Shown piece after piece: positions 4,958 to 12,792 of a DNA stretch of 64,000 nt (within the stretch, counting starts at the first letter, position 1; every line of letters starts with the position of its first letter). Below the pieces are notes generated by a model. It was not told the DNA's origin and searched no databases. It saw only the letters and a program-made list of their open reading frames with translations. The translations under genes were made by a program, and so were the position numbers. The stretch is from Idiomarinaceae bacterium HL-53 (lineage in GTDB: Bacteria > Pseudomonadota > Gammaproteobacteria > Enterobacterales > Alteromonadaceae). Where the stretch lies: the NCBI GenBank assembly GCA_001458075.1, contig LN899469.1, positions 2,619,501 to 2,683,500 of the forward strand, given 5' to 3'.

Positions 4958-6613
4958 TTACTGAATTAACAGTTGTTGTGTTACTTCGAATAACTCACGC
5001 TTCAGATCTTTGACGTCATTAATCACAATGCTTTGAGGAAAGAATTTCTCAACACTGCGTGTTTGAATCCCGATCCCCAGCAGCTCAAAGCCACTGCGTC
5101 TGCACCGGTCAACAATGTCATGCGTGGCAGCCCAATCATCTGGGTCACCATCCGTTAGCACTATCATTAGCTTTCGCTTCTGTTTTTGCGCTAACAAACT
5201 GTTTGCCGCAAACCACATTGCTTGTGCCATAGGGGTACAACCTCGTGGTTTTTGGTCAAAACAGGCGGCCCGATGTCTAACCGATTGCTTGGGCAATAAC
5301 GCGATAGAAACTTCCTGATGAATACCAGGAAAATAACTGACCGCAGGTACAACACCCGGTATGCCTTCCAGTGCCATGGCCAAAGCCAAAGCGGCTTCAT
5401 TGGCAACATGAAAGTACTTTCGATTACCTTCGCCAATGGGTTTACCCATTGAACCCGATATATCGACCAGCAAGTGCACAGCAGCATTAGGCGCAATGCG
5501 AGGTTGCCTTTGAATAAACAATCTCGATTCACCTGCTTGTGAGGCGGCAAGACGATGGGTTGCAACTCGAAGACCGTGCCGTTTGGCATGATTCCGATTG
5601 TCCTGACTGGACTGAACCATGCCCCTAAGTCGGGCTCGAATTTGAGCAGACTCCGACGCCGATAAGGTCAAGATGGCCTCATCACCCAACATAGCCTGCT
5701 CTGCTTGGGGCAAACTGAGTGGAGTGACGCCCTGATGTCCTTCAGCTTGTTCCGACAACACTTCTGCCACTTGTGCGAAGGTATCGGGTTCAAACTGAGC
5801 GGCACTGGCCTCTAAGGCTTGTCGCAAATTGTCAGCTTGATCAGAGTTATCTGAATCACCCGTTTCAGCAGCATCCCCCGTTGCAGACGAGTCTGTTTCT
5901 GGGGTTTGACTATCACTACTGTTATTGCTGTCATTACTCGCATCTTGTCCAATGTCATTACCGCTATCAGCATCCGACTCATCCTGTGGTGGACGAGATT
6001 CTTCTTCCAACATGGCAACGATGGCATCGACAAGTTTTAGCACTTCACCTGTAGACGCCAGGCTAGGCACTGCTGTCAGCATGGCGCTTAACCGGCTCAT
6101 CGCTGCGGCAGGAAAGAGTTGTCTCACTCTTTCATCAACTGTTTGATACAAAGGCGTCAGCGCTTTCTGACTCAGAAAGTGGCATCTCAAGCGGAACAAC
6201 AACCATGCTTGCAAGTTAGATGCAGGCTCAGGCTGTTCAGGTACACACATTTGCTGTGTGTCTACCATGTACTCAATCACTTGCGAAATACTGCGCCTGG
6301 TTCCGGGGTAATCCTTTGCCAATTCGTTTTCAATGCGAACATCCTCAATAATATTGAGAAGTGCCTTACGGATCGGTTTGGACGACGCCTTCTGCACCAT
6401 GTCAAAATTGGTATGCCGAATATGCGCCGCTTCATGAGCCAGGTAACCCCAAGCTATCTGTTGATAGTGTGGGTCGTCTGGGTTTGCTGTTGGGATCACA
6501 ATCCGCTCACCATCGGTAAACGCATCTTGTCCTTGAATAAGCACCTTCACACCAAACTTTTCGCCATAAGCGGCGGCAACGATTGGCAGTGCGTTTTTTA
6601 ATGGATGATTCAT
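4958..6613 (-). CDS. CobT-like VWA protein with N-terminal HExxH motif
   Basis: A 551-residue cytoplasmic protein. Near residues 56-62 it has AHEAAHIRHT, an HExxH zinc-peptidase-like motif. Residues ~205-270 are a low-complexity acidic Ser/Asp/Glu linker. The C-terminal ~200 residues form a von Willebrand A domain with MIDAS motif DISGSM and LTDGDPDD. This is the layout of CobT-like partners of CobS/MoxR AAA+ ATPases, and a CobS-like ATPase is encoded at 9004-9963. The pair probably forms a remodelling complex rather than a cobalt chelatase, since no cobalamin genes are nearby (inference). Whether the HEAAH motif is catalytic is unknown. Confidence 0.8.
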   Translation of the reverse strand: MNHPLKNALPIVAAAYGEKFGVKVLIQGQDAFTDGERIVIPTANPDDPHYQQIAWGYLAHEAAHIRHTNFDMVQKASSKPIRKALLNIIEDVRIENELAKDYPGTRRSISQVIEYMVDTQQMCVPEQPEPASNLQAWLLFRLRCHFLSQKALTPLYQTVDERVRQLFPAAAMSRLSAMLTAVPSLASTGEVLKLVDAIVAMLEEESRPPQDESDADSGNDIGQDASNDSNNSSDSQTPETDSSATGDAAETGDSDNSDQADNLRQALEASAAQFEPDTFAQVAEVLSEQAEGHQGVTPLSLPQAEQAMLGDEAILTLSASESAQIRARLRGMVQSSQDNRNHAKRHGLRVATHRLAASQAGESRLFIQRQPRIAPNAAVHLLVDISGSMGKPIGEGNRKYFHVANEAALALAMALEGIPGVVPAVSYFPGIHQEVSIALLPKQSVRHRAACFDQKPRGCTPMAQAMWFAANSLLAQKQKRKLMIVLTDGDPDDWAATHDIVDRCRRSGFELLGIGIQTRSVEKFFPQSIVINDVKDLKRELFEVTQQLLIQ

Positions 6614-7184: not shown

Positions 7185-8138
7185 TTAGAAATAAAATGAG
7201 TTTGGTACAGTCGAACCAAGGTTTGGTCTGACGGTTGGTTGTGGTATTGCACGTAAGTTATCTGCCTGAGCAGATACCGGCTGTGCGGGTTTAGGTTCAG
7301 GTTTGGGCATCAGTTGTCTGATATCCAATTGACCTTCACCGTGCATTCTCATCTTGTCTGGATCAGACAAAATTAAAATGGTCGCCATCAGTTCGTGATA
7401 GAGATTGTCTGTCACAGGGCCGGTCTTCGGCAGACGAACAAATAAATTGTCCATCGCTTCAACCATTGGCTGAACTCGATGATCCAGGAAGGACAAACCA
7501 TCCAACTTGTCTCTTAACCGTTTGAGAGGATTAAGGGCTCGCTGGCTGATTTGATTCTTACCTGCAACGGAACGCTCAAACAGTTCATTGGCATCACGAG
7601 CCACCTCCCTAAAGAGGGTGTGTCCCATACCATTGACCTTGTCATCTAAGCCACCAGCTTGGTCAGCCGGTTGCATTCGATAGATGGCATAATCGAACTG
7701 AAGACGTTGTTCCACGTCTTCGATGGGTGATAATGCACGTCGGATTGCATCTGCAAATTCCGGGTGTTTCGCAACCCAGTCAAACGTCACCTGATCATAG
7801 TTGTCCAAGAACAACTGCTTGCACTGCGCAAACTCCTGACCGATCCGGTCAAGCTCAGGAACAATCTGATCAATTCGATCTTCAGGGACGGCATAGCCAC
7901 CTAAAAACCGTACACCGACTTGCTCACACAAGCGCTGCGCTTCTTTCTTAAGCCTTTCAAAGTTCGCCAATGCCTCTGGGTCGCAAATTTTTTTACTCCC
8001 TAAGCTGGCAACATCCTTCGGAGGAAGTTGGCTGCCATTGGCTAATCTGAAATCTTCAGGCCTTAGCTTTTTTCTACCGCTCCAGATGGAACAGTCGATG
8101 TGACAAATCAAAAGTTTGTCGAGGGTTTGAATACTCAT
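7185..8138 (-). CDS. DUF3150 family protein
   Basis: A 317-residue soluble protein beginning MSIQTLDKLLICHIDCSIW, typical of DUF3150 proteins encoded beside CobS-type ATPases in ICEs and phages. It is largely helical, with a Pro/Gln-rich C-terminal linker (PKPEPKPAQPVSAQ) ending in the tail NSFYF. The linker plus aromatic tail looks like a flexible docking arm. Exo (10173) and the WGR-like protein (8237) end in similar tails. No enzymatic motif is visible. It probably works with the CobS-like ATPase and VWA protein (inference). Confidence 0.75.
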   Translation of the reverse strand: MSIQTLDKLLICHIDCSIWSGRKKLRPEDFRLANGSQLPPKDVASLGSKKICDPEALANFERLKKEAQRLCEQVGVRFLGGYAVPEDRIDQIVPELDRIGQEFAQCKQLFLDNYDQVTFDWVAKHPEFADAIRRALSPIEDVEQRLQFDYAIYRMQPADQAGGLDDKVNGMGHTLFREVARDANELFERSVAGKNQISQRALNPLKRLRDKLDGLSFLDHRVQPMVEAMDNLFVRLPKTGPVTDNLYHELMATILILSDPDKMRMHGEGQLDIRQLMPKPEPKPAQPVSAQADNLRAIPQPTVRPNLGSTVPNSFYF

Positions 8139-8139
8139 A

Positions 8140-8200
8140 GTGCATCCTCATGCGAGATGGGGACGCACCACTCCCAACAGGAGCAATGGCCCCCGTTTGG
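8140..8200 (-). promoter_or_regulatory. Double-hairpin leader of the DUF3150 gene
   Basis: Minus strand: an imperfect GC-rich hairpin (8172-8200, CCCAAAC.. / ..GTTGGG) is followed by an 8-bp stem GTGCGTCC / GGATGCAC (8140-8168, one G:U) that captures the GGA of the GAGG Shine-Dalgarno sequence just before the ATG at 8138. Confidence 0.6.
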
Positions 8201-8236
8201 GTGGTAGTAGTTGACGCGCTAATGGCAATACCACTA

Positions 8237-9004
8237 TCAGAAATAGTAATTTTGCGAATCAGGCGACGATTGGTTGAGATCAATTTTCACAGGCATTAAG
8301 TCCAGTGCTTCAGCTATCGGGCGAACCCGCTCTAAATCACTGCCTAGCAACCGCAATACATCTTTTTCCAACTTCAGTTGGTCGGATACTTCTATCCCTT
8401 CAGGACTCGCTACTGTGAGCGAACACAATGGTGGTAATTGACGCTTAAAGGCCAGTAACAGCAACAATGGCCACGGGCCATCATCCGTGTTAACAATGCC
8501 AGCGCCTTCACCTGACACCATGCTGATTTGATTGGTACTAGGTAATCCGCTTTTGCAAAAGCCTAATGACCATTCTCCAATCCTGACCTGCTTATCATCA
8601 ATCACAGCCAAGCCATAGGCTTCAAGCAGCTTTGCCATATCGAACAACGCTTTTTGCGCCAGCGAGATTTGGCCATTGACGTCCTTGCGAGTACGAAACT
8701 CCCAACTGACGTTCTTGGCGCACGCGACGCTATCTAGCGCATTTGAGAGTTCAAATGGCCGCCCTTGATGATCAATGCCGACTTGTCCAACCAATCGATA
8801 ACCCTTGTTGATTTTCTCATTGATTCGTCGGTCTGCTTCAGCGTTAGGATCAGTCGAGTCAATCAATCGCTGCTGCGACAGTTGACCTGCTTTTCCAAAT
8901 CGAACTTCAATCTCCTGGGTATCTGATCCAACGTAAATAGCCCATTCTTTGGCTGTCCCATCAGAATGACTGTAACGGTAAAGAGCAAAGCACTTTTCCA
9001 TCAT
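8237..9004 (-). CDS. WGR-like N-terminal domain protein
   Basis: About 255 residues, starting at an ATG overlapping the cobS stop (TGATG), with the cobS-terminal GGAGG as its binding site, so it is translationally coupled. An ATG one codon later is equally possible. Residues ~5-75 (CFALYRYSHSDGTAKEWAIYVG... VRFGKAG... ADRRINEKINKGYRLVG) resemble a WGR-type domain, a nucleic-acid-associated fold. The rest is unrecognised. It ends SQNYYF, echoing the -FYF tails of two neighbours. The role is probably as a DNA-linked partner of the CobS ATPase (inference). Confidence 0.65.
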   Translation of the reverse strand: MMEKCFALYRYSHSDGTAKEWAIYVGSDTQEIEVRFGKAGQLSQQRLIDSTDPNAEADRRINEKINKGYRLVGQVGIDHQGRPFELSNALDSVACAKNVSWEFRTRKDVNGQISLAQKALFDMAKLLEAYGLAVIDDKQVRIGEWSLGFCKSGLPSTNQISMVSGEGAGIVNTDDGPWPLLLLLAFKRQLPPLCSLTVASPEGIEVSDQLKLEKDVLRLLGSDLERVRPIAEALDLMPVKIDLNQSSPDSQNYYF

Positions 9005-9963
9005 CAATCCTCCCAGTGGTCACCGAAGACATCAGCGGCAATACGGTGAATGGCTTCACGTTGCTCCAATTCAGCACGAGCCGTCAAAGACCGAACCAGT
9101 GCATACTCCACTGCGTTAGGAGCGCCTTTAAAAGCAAGTGTTAACTTTGCCCAGCGCACCAAGGTCCGAGTGGACATGGTGATACTGAGTTCTGCACCGC
9201 CATCCGCGCCCCCAATAAAAAGACGACGAATGTCACCAGCCACCTTCACCATTTTTTGGCGAAAGACCTCTGGTAAGCCCGGCGCAACGTTCTCCAGAAT
9301 GGCTTCCTCTACAGATGGCTCTGCATAGGTCGCTTCAATGATTCTAAAGCGATCAAGAAAAGCCAAATTCTGTTGAAGCACACCTTGATACAAGCCCGTC
9401 TGGTCACCGCTGCCCGCACTGTTGCCGGTAGCGATAAAACGAAACTTGGTATGTGGCATGATGATCTCACCGCCATTTTGTGCGATGACCAACGGGGCAC
9501 CTTCCAAAATGTCATTGAGCCCAGCCAGTTCAGCAGGCTCAGCAAGATCCATTTCATTAATGATCAGCAAATGGCCATGCTTGACAGCCAGTGCCAGCGG
9601 TCCATACACAAAGGTCATGTTGCCATTAACCAGTGTGTGGTGACCGATAAGATCGGACAACTCCAATCGACCATGCGCAGTAATTTGCTGAACAGGCCAA
9701 TTCAATCGAGAAGCAACTTGGCAAATTAGCGAGGTCTTACCGCATCCCGTGGGGCCTGTAATATACAAACCGTCACCGTCGGGGTTAGACAAGAACGCCA
9801 ATACGTCACGTAAGTCTTCTTTTCTAAAAACATACTCGTCCTTGCGAACGGGAATGTTTGGATGGGTAGTGTCGGCACTAAATCCTTCCAGAACGAAAGC
9901 ATCAGGAGCCGGGACATTAAACGTTTGATTCACTTGAACCAAAAATGGGGATTGTTCAGTCAT
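9004..9963 (-). CDS. cobS: CobS/MoxR-type AAA+ ATPase
   Basis: The start at 9963 (MTEQSPFLVQ) is favoured by GAGG six bases upstream; upstream in-frame starts lie inside the hairpin leader. The 319-residue protein has Walker A GPTGCGKTS, a Walker B-type LLIINEMD (Asn-Glu rather than Asp-Glu), sensor 1 FIATGNSAGSG and an arginine-finger region (FLDRFRIIEATY). The family works as a ring ATPase with a VWA partner, present here at 4958. In SXT-type ICEs the cobS gene is a conserved backbone gene of unclear role; cobalt chelation is unlikely given the context. Confidence 0.85.
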   Translation of the reverse strand: MTEQSPFLVQVNQTFNVPAPDAFVLEGFSADTTHPNIPVRKDEYVFRKEDLRDVLAFLSNPDGDGLYITGPTGCGKTSLICQVASRLNWPVQQITAHGRLELSDLIGHHTLVNGNMTFVYGPLALAVKHGHLLIINEMDLAEPAELAGLNDILEGAPLVIAQNGGEIIMPHTKFRFIATGNSAGSGDQTGLYQGVLQQNLAFLDRFRIIEATYAEPSVEEAILENVAPGLPEVFRQKMVKVAGDIRRLFIGGADGGAELSITMSTRTLVRWAKLTLAFKGAPNAVEYALVRSLTARAELEQREAIHRIAADVFGDHWED

Positions 9964-9969
9964 GGTAAA

Positions 9970-10025
9970 CCTCATTTGTTTTAACGAGGCCCCATGCCCC
10001 AACAGGGAATGAAGTCCCCGTCGGG
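9970..10025 (-). promoter_or_regulatory. Double-hairpin leader of cobS
   Basis: Minus strand: hairpin 1 (9997-10025) pairs CCCGACGGGG with CCCTGTTGGG, including two G:U pairs. Hairpin 2 (9970-9989) pairs CCTCG with the TGAGG that is the Shine-Dalgarno sequence for the ATG at 9963. The segment 10026-10145 upstream must hold the promoter, since a hairpin terminator closes the exo transcript at 10146-10163. Confidence 0.6.
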
Positions 10026-10145
10026 TGGTGTGTTGATTTTGGTATGGCTGTGTATGTAAGAGTTCAGCTCGCTCTATCATTCGTACCCAGCATTGGCTAC
10101 GAGTGAAACTGCTTTCTGATGCACTCGATGTAAGCGCATGAGAAA

Positions 10146-10163
10146 GGAGCCGAAATCGGCTCC
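10146..10163 (-). terminator. Probable terminator after exo
   Basis: Minus strand GGAGCCGA-TT-TCGGCTCC, an 8-bp GC-rich stem ten bases after the exo stop, followed by TTTCT. The T tract is short, so termination may be partial. Confidence 0.55.
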
Positions 10164-10172
10164 AAGTGAACG

Positions 10173-11189
10173 TTAAAAATAAAATGAGCTCGGCGAGTCA
10201 CCTGGCAGAACCAAGTTCTCTGGCTCAAGGCTGATTTTGATTGGTGTTTCAACGGGCTGCTCTGGCTTATTGGTGCTGATACGCAACCGCTCTTGTGGCG
10301 CTTTTCGGTAAGCGGCTAAAACCTGTTCGTCCAGTTCGCCTAATTTATCGGTGGCCAATTGCTTATAGTCCACAGTGCCCGCCATCATGTAGCGGCTGAG
10401 TTTGACCCCAGCATAATCCGCATGAGCGTAATTACCCATCATAGCGACCAATTTTGACTGAGCGTCTCGCATTTCCTCTTTCAAAGATTTAATGTGATTT
10501 TCCAGTCGGACAACTTCGGAATGTGCTGAGCAATACTGGCGAGACAGCGATGTCCAGCGGTATTGGGCTTCACCCTTGGGAACAAAACAATCTTGTTCAG
10601 GGCATTTTGACGGTTCTTTTTTGGTCTGTACTAACTCCCAAAACTGAAGCGCTGTTTCTTGCAATTCAGTTAAGAACGCCGCGTCTCGTTGTATTTCAAA
10701 CTCAATCAGTTGATCCTCAAAATAGAATACCAACCAACCACGCGTGCTATTGGCGACCAGTATTTGATGCTGAACTTGCACCCAATACAACTGGTACGCC
10801 TCACTTTGTTCTCTGTGAGCTTGCACATCCTCAAAAACTGACTGGCAAGGACATTTCAGTTCAACGGGTTCGCCCGCATCGTTGATGCCATCAAAGCTGG
10901 CCCGAAAGATTGCGTTATGATCGGCTTCAGCACATAACGGCAGAAGAAAGTCATTGTGCGCATTCTCAAATGCTCGCCTTGCTTGAGGCTCCAACCGTAT
11001 ACCGCGAAGCACATTGGGATTATTCGACAGGTCTTCCGGTAATACGAATCCAGTTTTTTCTGCCCATAATCGCCAAGGTGTTTTGTAGGGTGAACGCCCC
11101 ATAATAATTGGGGCTTCAGATGCCGTAACCCCTGCAATGCGCCACTGGTGCCATGCAGGAGTACGTTGTGATAGGTCGATAACCTTCAT
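10173..11189 (-). CDS. exo: Lambda-Exo/YqaJ-type alkaline exonuclease
   Basis: A 338-residue protein. The start MKVIDLSQRTPAWHQWR is a typical YqaJ recombinase entry (QRTPAWHQWRIAGVTASEAP), and the catalytic region follows with VELKCPCQ (the ExK pair of the PD-(D/E)XK fold). It should degrade one strand of double-stranded ends to feed the Bet annealing protein at 11475. In SXT/R391 elements this exo-bet-ssb set drives recombination between co-resident ICEs (established for the family). The C-terminal half has a helical region, then a linker ending SPSSFYF, a tail shared with two neighbours. AAAGGAGG precedes the start. Confidence 0.9.
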   Translation of the reverse strand: MKVIDLSQRTPAWHQWRIAGVTASEAPIIMGRSPYKTPWRLWAEKTGFVLPEDLSNNPNVLRGIRLEPQARRAFENAHNDFLLPLCAEADHNAIFRASFDGINDAGEPVELKCPCQSVFEDVQAHREQSEAYQLYWVQVQHQILVANSTRGWLVFYFEDQLIEFEIQRDAAFLTELQETALQFWELVQTKKEPSKCPEQDCFVPKGEAQYRWTSLSRQYCSAHSEVVRLENHIKSLKEEMRDAQSKLVAMMGNYAHADYAGVKLSRYMMAGTVDYKQLATDKLGELDEQVLAAYRKAPQERLRISTNKPEQPVETPIKISLEPENLVLPGDSPSSFYF

Positions 11190-11474: not shown

Positions 11475-12293
11475 CTAAGAAGCTAAAGGCTGTGTGAGCG
11501 CTTTGGCTGCTTGTTGCTGTGCATTAAATATTTCTTGTTTCGCAAACGTCAGTTCAACACCTTGAAAATGTTCATTGGCATATTCCAATGCACTATTCCA
11601 AGCGTTTGAAGCTTCCGCCCGCTCGATAAGCTTGTAAACAAGCCCTCGGGTTCGGGAGTCAACTTGCTCGGGTGGAATCACAGATGGCTCAACAACATGT
11701 GTTGCTTGGCCTTCGATAATTCGCTCCGCTTCGTCTTGATCGAAAATTCCCACAAAGCCAAACGCAATGCGGGAACACTGGATCATGGATTTATGTCTTA
11801 GCATTCGCTTAGTGTGCGTCTGCCATGGACCATCTACCCGGTAAGGGCCATTTTTGCCGTTACCTTCAAAAGGCGGTCGATAGACTTCATCCAGATACTC
11901 AGTGATTTTGACTGGGTGCGAACGATCGCGCCGATAGATGATGCATTCCATCCATTCAGGGCATTCTTTCGCGCCATCCAGTGAGACTTTGGTTTCTGAA
12001 GTCTTAAACTCCATGCCATCAAACTGGTCGTGTTGATTGATGATGCGAGACCATCCATCGACACCTACGACTGGGATAATCCCAGCTTGCTTATCAGGGA
12101 ACGCAAAAATCTCTTTGGTGAAAGGGTTCAAGCCGTACTGATCTGCAACCACCAAGAGCGCCATCATCTGCTCATTGGTCGGTGCACTACCGTCACGTTG
12201 CTTGAATGCTGTTGCTTTTAGGGTATCGAACAACTTGTTTGGATCGACACTAAAGCGCTCAGCAAAGCGTTGGATTAGCTTTGGTTTTTCCAT
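11475..12293 (-). CDS. bet: Bet/RecT-family single-strand annealing protein
   Basis: The start at 12293 (MEKPKLIQRFAERFSVDPNKL) is chosen because GGAG lies just upstream; an upstream in-frame TTG falls inside the leader hairpin. The 272-residue protein has the phage Bet signature: LKATAFKQRDGSAPTNEQMMALLVVADQYGLNPFTKEIFAFPDK, then VGVDGWSRIIN and the conserved KRMLRHKSMIQCSRIAFGF. Bet coats 3' tails made by Exo and anneals complementary strands. In SXT-type ICEs it makes hybrid elements. The Exo-47aa-Bet-SSB order shows an intact recombination module. Confidence 0.92.
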   Translation of the reverse strand: MEKPKLIQRFAERFSVDPNKLFDTLKATAFKQRDGSAPTNEQMMALLVVADQYGLNPFTKEIFAFPDKQAGIIPVVGVDGWSRIINQHDQFDGMEFKTSETKVSLDGAKECPEWMECIIYRRDRSHPVKITEYLDEVYRPPFEGNGKNGPYRVDGPWQTHTKRMLRHKSMIQCSRIAFGFVGIFDQDEAERIIEGQATHVVEPSVIPPEQVDSRTRGLVYKLIERAEASNAWNSALEYANEHFQGVELTFAKQEIFNAQQQAAKALTQPLAS

Positions 12294-12297
12294 TTTG

Positions 12298-12353
12298 GAC
12301 TCCGACAATCAAAGTGGGAGTCTGCCCCTGACGGGAAAGTACTCCCGGCTGGG
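12298..12353 (-). promoter_or_regulatory. Double-hairpin leader of bet
   Basis: Minus strand: hairpin 1 (12326-12353) pairs CCCAGCCGGGA with TCCCGTCAGGG with two mismatches. Hairpin 2 (12298-12322) is a perfect 6-bp stem GACTCC / GGAGTC, the GGAGTC arm being the bet Shine-Dalgarno sequence three bases from the ATG. Confidence 0.65.
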
Positions 12354-12372: not shown

Positions 12373-12792
12373 TTAAAAATCTGGTTCAGGATAAGTTTGC
12401 GCCCAATTAGCTTGGGAGCCCGCATCATCCGCCGCTGATGGCTCAGATGTTTTGTTCACACTATCAAGAAGCAGAAACTCGTCCGCGTCCACTTCGGTCA
12501 ATCGATGCTTAATACCATCTTTCTCCCATGAGCGCGTGCGCTGAGGCCCTTGAACAAAAAGCTTCGCTCCTTTTTGGATTAAATCTTTTGCTCTTAGCCC
12601 TAACTTAAATCCACCACGATCTCGAAAAACGACCCGATGCCATTCCGTATGCTCTTTGAGCTCATTGGATTGACGGTCGCGCCATTTCTCAGAAGTGGCC
12701 AGCGAAATGCTGGTCACTAAATCACCTGATGGATAGGCTCGCGTCTCTGGCTCAGAGCCAACGTAGCCTATGAGTGTTACTTGGTTTTTCAT
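12373..12792 (-). CDS. ssb: Single-stranded DNA-binding protein
   Basis: A 139-residue OB-fold SSB: MKNQVTLIGYVGSEPETRAYPSGDLVTSISLATSEKW followed by LRAKDLIQKGAKLFVQGPQRTRSWEKDG. It ends TYPEPDF, a shortened version of the acidic -DDDIPF tip that binds DNA-processing partners in bacterial SSBs. It protects transferred or recombining single strands. The start has GAGGAG eight bases upstream. The gene follows 12808-13134 with a 15-nt gap and lacks its own hairpin leader, so it probably relies on that upstream gene for translation. Confidence 0.92.
   Translation of the reverse strand: MKNQVTLIGYVGSEPETRAYPSGDLVTSISLATSEKWRDRQSNELKEHTEWHRVVFRDRGGFKLGLRAKDLIQKGAKLFVQGPQRTRSWEKDGIKHRLTEVDADEFLLLDSVNKTSEPSAADDAGSQANWAQTYPEPDF

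Follow-up and report, generated by a model that had tools for sequence, protein, structure and literature searches.

The 64,000-nucleotide stretch of the Idiomarinaceae bacterium HL-53 genome analyzed here (contig LN899469.1, positions 2,619,501 to 2,683,500; hereafter the window) includes part of an integrative and conjugative element (ICE) in which three otherwise unrelated proteins end in the same short aromatic tail: a YqaJ/lambda-type exonuclease (Exo), a WGR-domain protein, and a DUF3150 protein. Across related elements the tail is retained at the extreme C-terminus, and it changes in step among the non-homologous proteins of each element. The tails probably constitute an element-specific C-terminal docking tag for a hub of the element's own, and the most likely hub is the CobS-like MoxR AAA+ ATPase together with the VWA protein of the same gene cluster.

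Conservation and co-variation of the terminal motif

The initial annotation gave the endings as SPSSFYF (Exo), VPNSFYF (DUF3150), and DSQNYYF (WGR-like protein), and re-reading of the sequence confirms each exactly. Among all window open reading frames (ORFs) of at least 50 amino acids (aa) these are the only proteins with a three-aromatic end, and the same three alone have a two-aromatic end among 59 non-overlapping gene-like window ORFs. A background of non-redundant unrelated genes contains no three-aromatic end (0/836) and nine two-aromatic ends (9/836), and the binomial probability of three three-aromatic ends in 59, based on the aromatic residue frequency cubed, is ~5e-6. No other protein of the tagged kind occurs in the rest of the ICE beyond the window; a SetR-like protein outside the window that ends in DFW was set aside as a lone match.

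We gathered 116 elements and reduced these to 41 non-redundant ones with DUF3150 cores below 75% identity, identifying proteins by models that lacked the final 8 residues and scanning genome contigs with a five-sequence alignment; two WGR entries (IncC and L200) that the profile missed were placed by gene position. In this set 39/41 DUF3150, 25/30 Exo, and 15/16 WGR proteins have an aromatic last residue, and 30/41, 21/30, and 15/16, respectively, have two aromatics at the end. Corresponding counts for an aromatic last residue in other module and neighboring proteins are 0/40 for CobS, 1/40 for VWA, and 2/28 for Bet, and none of the single-stranded DNA-binding proteins (SSBs) of the sampled elements has a two-aromatic end.

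The tag stays at the extreme C-terminus in relatives of 25–47% identity, and the linkers that precede it cannot be aligned between relatives. Tags behind unrelated linkers are found in Allochromatium, Azospirillum, Methylobacter, Methylomonas, IncC, and Pseudomonas plasmid relatives, with endings such as PSFYF (Exo), DDSFYF (WGR), and RSFFF (DUF3150) in Allochromatium, DFWF, DFYF, and DFWF in Methylobacter, and ETFYW, EDHFF, and GDYFF in IncC. The Allochromatium WGR protein has lost its C-terminal part, down to 107 aa, and retains its DDSFYF end. The docking idea of the initial annotation hinged on the tails being kept in other ICEs and IncC plasmids, and it survives this comparison, as the tails are conserved there and the linkers are not. 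Its description of the motif as a terminal aromatic tripeptide holds for the window but is too strict for the relatives as a whole, whose consensus is hydrophobic-[FYW]-F-COOH. One group has Trp as the last residue. The motif is preceded by acidic or small residues (acidic at position −4 in 50% of WGR, 32% of DUF3150, and 20% of Exo proteins, and at −5 in 69% of WGR proteins).

The DUF3150 module is present at least four times on the Methylomonas sp. LW13 chromosome (L161, L165, L166, and L171). The Exo of a V. furnissii plasmid (L207, 12166-13275) is untagged, frameshifted near its end, and present in a record from which the VWA gene is missing; this is a module in decay and was not counted as a counter-example. 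A phage collection yielded one plasmid-like record for DUF3150 and none for WGR, and is uninformative on phages.

Co-variation is evident on inspection of individual elements. L195 has SLYF on Exo, WGR, and DUF3150 alike, L199 and L200 have a terminal Trp on Exo, DUF3150, and the intervening protein, and IncHI-like plasmids have aliphatic-F tags (VVF/MVF in L206, LLF/MMF in L214, and MIF/FLF in L215). Pairs inspected as later checks fit the same pattern: GTFWF on both Exo and DUF3150 of P. hygromyciniae, EWFF (Exo) and DWFF (DUF3150) in G480, and EFVF (Exo) and PFIF (DUF3150), encoded ~27 kb apart, in P. koreensis plasmid p3. The four terminal residues of DUF3150 and Exo from the same element have a similarity score of 14.2, compared with 6.8 ± 0.9 when elements are shuffled (p <= 5e-5, n = 30), and 14.0 compared with 6.2 ± 1.2 for cores below 45% identity (p <= 5e-5, n = 14). 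For both DUF3150-WGR and Exo-WGR, p is <= 5e-5 in the full set; in six diverged elements it is 0.005 and 0.02, respectively. At control positions −9 to −6 no effect is seen in the WGR pairs, and that for DUF3150-Exo is weak (p = 0.003). A GC-content explanation is ruled out, as the co-variation survives shuffling within GC strata (p = 1e-4 to 5e-4). The motif is short and any single case might be chance, but the permutation results (p <= 5e-5, and <= 5e-4 when GC-stratified) and the 0/836 background make it very improbable that the endings reflect convergence or composition with no common function.

Selection acts on the peptide, because different genes and elements encode the tag with different synonymous codons (Table 1 gives those of the window) and the DNA downstream of the stop codons is unrelated; a DNA-level motif at the gene ends is ruled out on the same grounds. 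AlphaFold2 predicts DUF3150 residues 1-275 to be well folded and residues 283-317 to be disordered, with a predicted local distance difference test score (pLDDT) below 50, as it also is for the last four residues of the WGR protein. The DUF3150 fold has no PDB match at E <= 0.001, and its VIA-align matches (best Z 8.5) were rejected because they look like generic helical bundles.

Proteins that carry the tag

The tagged genes of the window fall within a run of four neighbors encoding Exo, CobS (untagged), WGR, and DUF3150 (Table 1), and the WGR gene and the 3′ end of the CobS gene overlap by 4 bases. The Pfam WGR match lies under Pfam's cut-off, although the assignment as WGR-like made initially is backed by the predicted fold, in which residues 2-95 match the PARP1/PARP2 WGR domains (Z 7-7.8 over ~76 residues) and 2ra8 (Z 9.8). 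CobS matches AAA_5 (E 2e-18) and CbbQ_C (E 8e-18) in Pfam and the solved cobaltochelatase CobS (E 6e-56). Its ORF begins ~40 residues upstream of the starts of its relatives, and the true start is probably a later Met preceding TEQSPF. The metal ion-dependent adhesion site (MIDAS) of the VWA protein is complete, with DxSxS, T, and D invariant in 8/8 sequences. In their N-terminal half, the VWA protein and its relatives also share an invariant HExxH with N..ED after it, an arrangement like that of a zincin metalloprotease. The SSB terminus (YPEPDF) departs from the usual DDIPF.

Table 1. Tagged genes, their terminal codons, and neighboring genes in the window.
Feature	Position	Strand	Evidence and ending
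Exo, YqaJ/lambda-type exonuclease, 338 aa, tagged	10173..11189	-	PF09588, E 6e-22; end ...LPGDSPSSFYF
FYF tag of Exo	10176..10184	-	codons TTT TAT TTT
WGR-domain protein, 256 aa, tagged	8237..9007	-	PARP1/PARP2 WGR fold; end ...SSPDSQNYYF
YYF tag of WGR protein	8240..8248	-	codons TAC TAT TTC
DUF3150 protein, 317 aa, tagged	7185..8138	-	PF11348, E 5e-104; end ...GSTVPNSFYF
Disordered tail of DUF3150, residues 283-317, tag at end	7188..7292	-	AlphaFold2 pLDDT
FYF tag of DUF3150	7188..7196	-	codons TTT TAT TTC
CobS-like MoxR AAA+ ATPase, untagged, candidate receptor	9004..10080	-	AAA_5, CbbQ_C (Pfam)
VWA protein (CobT-like), untagged, candidate receptor	4958..6613	-	CobT/VWA (Pfam); MIDAS + HExxH
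Bet (RecT family), untagged here	11475..12308	-	PF03837; end LTQPLAS
SSB, PF-like rather than tag-like end	12373..12792	-	PF00436; end YPEPDF

Five of the 147 proteins examined in the IncC plasmid pVC1374 are tagged, and all five are encoded in the bet-exo region: the protein in the WGR position, Bet, Exo, DUF3150, and a protein of 91 aa with the end ELEDFYF. The last of these (WP_000340223, at 21918-22193 of L223) is not assigned to a family and is likely to be a further client. One more pVC1374 protein has an ETFF end preceded by a hydrophobic stretch, which resembles a membrane segment. Bet is tagged in both IncC and V. harveyi and would be a client there for that reason, and there are also tagged elements that have no Bet.

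A phage-like IMG/VR contig (L007, 1567-17895) encodes CobS, DUF3150, and VWA and has no Exo of the YqaJ family in its 37.9 kb record. It has a WF tag on DUF3150 and on eight small proteins, three of which are mutually related, the others sharing just the last dozen residues. Several of the small proteins have LPDSDxxWF, and one is SH3-like. Among IMG/VR Exo proteins a two-aromatic end is present in 2 of 52 distinct ends, both on CobS-bearing contigs; Exo is tagged only beside the CobS module.

Type IV secretion signals are often C-terminal and most of the elements are conjugative, as would suit a signal that exports the tagged proteins into the recipient. We consider this highly improbable, however, as the relaxase and transfer proteins are untagged among the 147 pVC1374 proteins examined, and the tag is present on plasmid pALVIN02, which is typed as non-mobilizable, and on the phage-like L007.

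The candidate receptor

CobS and VWA are each present in 40 of the 41 elements and DUF3150 in all of them, whereas Exo, Bet, SSB, and WGR are each frequently missing; tagged DUF3150 persists in whole records without Exo, as in L007. Plasmids of the same enterobacteria bear different tags (FYW/YFF in IncC versus VVF/LLF in IncHI-like plasmids), which favors a receptor carried by the element over one belonging to the host. Since CobS and VWA are near-universal and untagged and other candidates are often missing, and since the MIDAS of MoxR partners holds clients through an acidic ligand, the receptor is tentatively placed on CobS-VWA. In characterized MoxR-VWA pairs the client is held via the MIDAS, where an acidic group is the sixth ligand of the metal (PMC13036017, PMC9976466). 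By elimination and by this precedent the CobS-VWA machine is most likely the receptor, and we would rank VWA first, CobS second, and the DUF3150 core third; it is a guess that the tag carboxylate supplies the sixth ligand of the MIDAS. The initial annotation had proposed CobS, Bet, or another common partner, and listed VWA and SSB as further partners to model. Bet is unlikely, being itself tagged in some relatives and absent from some tagged elements, and SSB is unlikely because it is often absent. The docking-peptide proposal itself is well supported indirectly, by a tail that is conserved where linkers are not and that co-varies per element.

A receptor on the folded core of DUF3150, with homotypic exchange of tails and with Exo and WGR competing, would fit the presence of DUF3150 in every sampled element and its well-folded core. 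However, a receptor that also bears the tag could work only through autoinhibition or the exchange of oligomers, and CobS and VWA are as universal and also untagged, such that we regard this arrangement as unlikely. C-terminal hydrophobic tags are typical signals for AAA+ proteins, and the tag might be ssrA-like, with the AAA+ ring engaging or unfolding clients through it, or might present clients to the zincin-like domain of VWA with its invariant HExxH, rather than forming a stable tether. To this we likewise give a small probability, as the pore of NorQD, a MoxR-VWA machine, is occupied by a VWA finger and not by a threaded client (PMC13036017), and the tag is also present on DUF3150, which the module always contains.

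A further alternative is that the tag mimics the SSB tip and binds SSB-C-terminal pockets of host or element proteins, or is a motif for the host sliding clamp. The terminal Phe with its free carboxylate resembles the SSB end, and acidic residues often precede the aromatics (as at −5 in WGR), but the penultimate Pro occurs in 0/89 tags compared with 8/23 SSBs of the same elements, and the tags vary between elements of one host group and co-vary within elements, which is unexpected for a shared host receptor; this alternative is improbable. No sliding clamp is present among the Pfam matches of ten window proteins, with no systematic clamp search made. Some SSBs have 6 to 13 residues past DDDIPF, such that the tip is not terminal (L005, 7327-7857; L006, 16681-17217), and further SSBs of this type are present at L234 (13738-14244) and L198 (3464-4045).

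Several observations weigh against a docking tag for CobS-VWA. Exo is untagged, ending in AAAA or similar, at four Azospirillum loci (L002, L151, L152, and L153), a Xanthomonas DUF3150 ends in QNI, and distant DUF3150 proteins end in GVVEF or ELVL. The elements are related and not fully independent, and the permutation p-values are consequently inexact. CobS, VWA, and DUF3150 travel together, such that a receptor among them is not separable, and SXT Exo and Bet, either purified or plasmid-borne, promoted recombination in E. coli with no reported need for the module (PMC3118119). In the Azospirillum elements with an untagged Exo, WGR and DUF3150 are still tagged.

Relation to known systems and to element biology

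The closest known mechanism is that of phage T4, in which gp43, gp55, and gp33 use a shared C-terminal epitope on unrelated proteins to bind an element-encoded hub, the gp45 clamp (PMC2988020). The gp45 clients have a short hydrophobic/acidic C-terminus behind a divergent flexible linker, and their ends are exchangeable (PMC2988020). The tagged proteins likewise have the same short end on several unrelated proteins of one element, and divergent flexible linkers (unalignable, and disordered in DUF3150 283-317), but they differ in sequence and in that the candidate receptor is probably an AAA+/VWA machine. The SSB tip (DDDIPF), to which the initial annotation compared the tails, is similar as a type of mechanism, with a terminal Phe, a free carboxylate, a disordered linker that is acidic in some of the tagged proteins, and a docking role that is probable for the tag. 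The comparison fails for the Pro at position −2 that defines the tip, the tag position being mostly aromatic; moreover, the tag is present on many unrelated proteins and the SSBs of the elements keep their own distinct ends.

By sequence and by their complete MIDAS, the cluster ATPase and VWA protein belong with the MoxR AAA+/VWA pairs (CobS-CobT, NorQ-NorD, CbbQ-CbbO, and RavA-ViaA), for which neither a shared C-terminal client tag nor DNA-break clients are described in PMC13036017 or PMC9976466. As in lambda Red, an exonuclease and an annealing protein would be physically coupled, although in lambda it is the annealing protein Red beta whose C-terminal domain binds Exo (PMC8303780), whereas here Exo and IncC Bet share a tag that would serve a third party.

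In the mechanism that we favor, a flexible linker leading to a short hydrophobic-aromatic-Phe end with a free carboxylate would form a docking tag that attaches unrelated proteins of one element to a common receptor encoded by that element, the clients being DUF3150 always, together with Exo, WGR, sometimes Bet, and extra small proteins. The PARP1/PARP2 WGR domains bind DNA breaks. A role at DNA breaks fits the tagged set, in which a WGR protein and an exonuclease are joined in some elements by an annealing protein, and the machine may bring these to DNA ends or remodel them there. The simplest model is a tether that would concentrate the tagged proteins on CobS-VWA at DNA ends. SXT Exo and Bet act jointly in recombination (PMC3118119).

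More tentatively, the tag could represent an address code of the elements' own, changing in concert and assigning DNA-break proteins to a CobS-VWA-DUF3150 machine whose sixth MIDAS ligand might be the tag carboxylate, throughout SXT/R391, IncC, IncH-like, Pseudomonas, methanotroph, and phage-like elements; we hold this combined proposal to be plausible but somewhat doubtful as a whole. A literature search, with most subscription journals outside its scope, found no paper on DUF3150, no published function for the cluster, and no earlier description of the tag.

The MoxR-VWA-DUF3150 cluster is conserved in the resistance elements SXT/R391, IncC, IncH, IncT, and IncP-7 (PMC2642839 for part of these), and the tag would link its CobS-VWA machine to the recombination proteins of the element. 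It offers a handle on this machine, as the three terminal residues can be deleted, supplied as peptides, or swapped between elements, and the last few residues of a protein may provide a way to find client genes, examples being the IncC protein of 91 aa and the small proteins of L007, eight in number.

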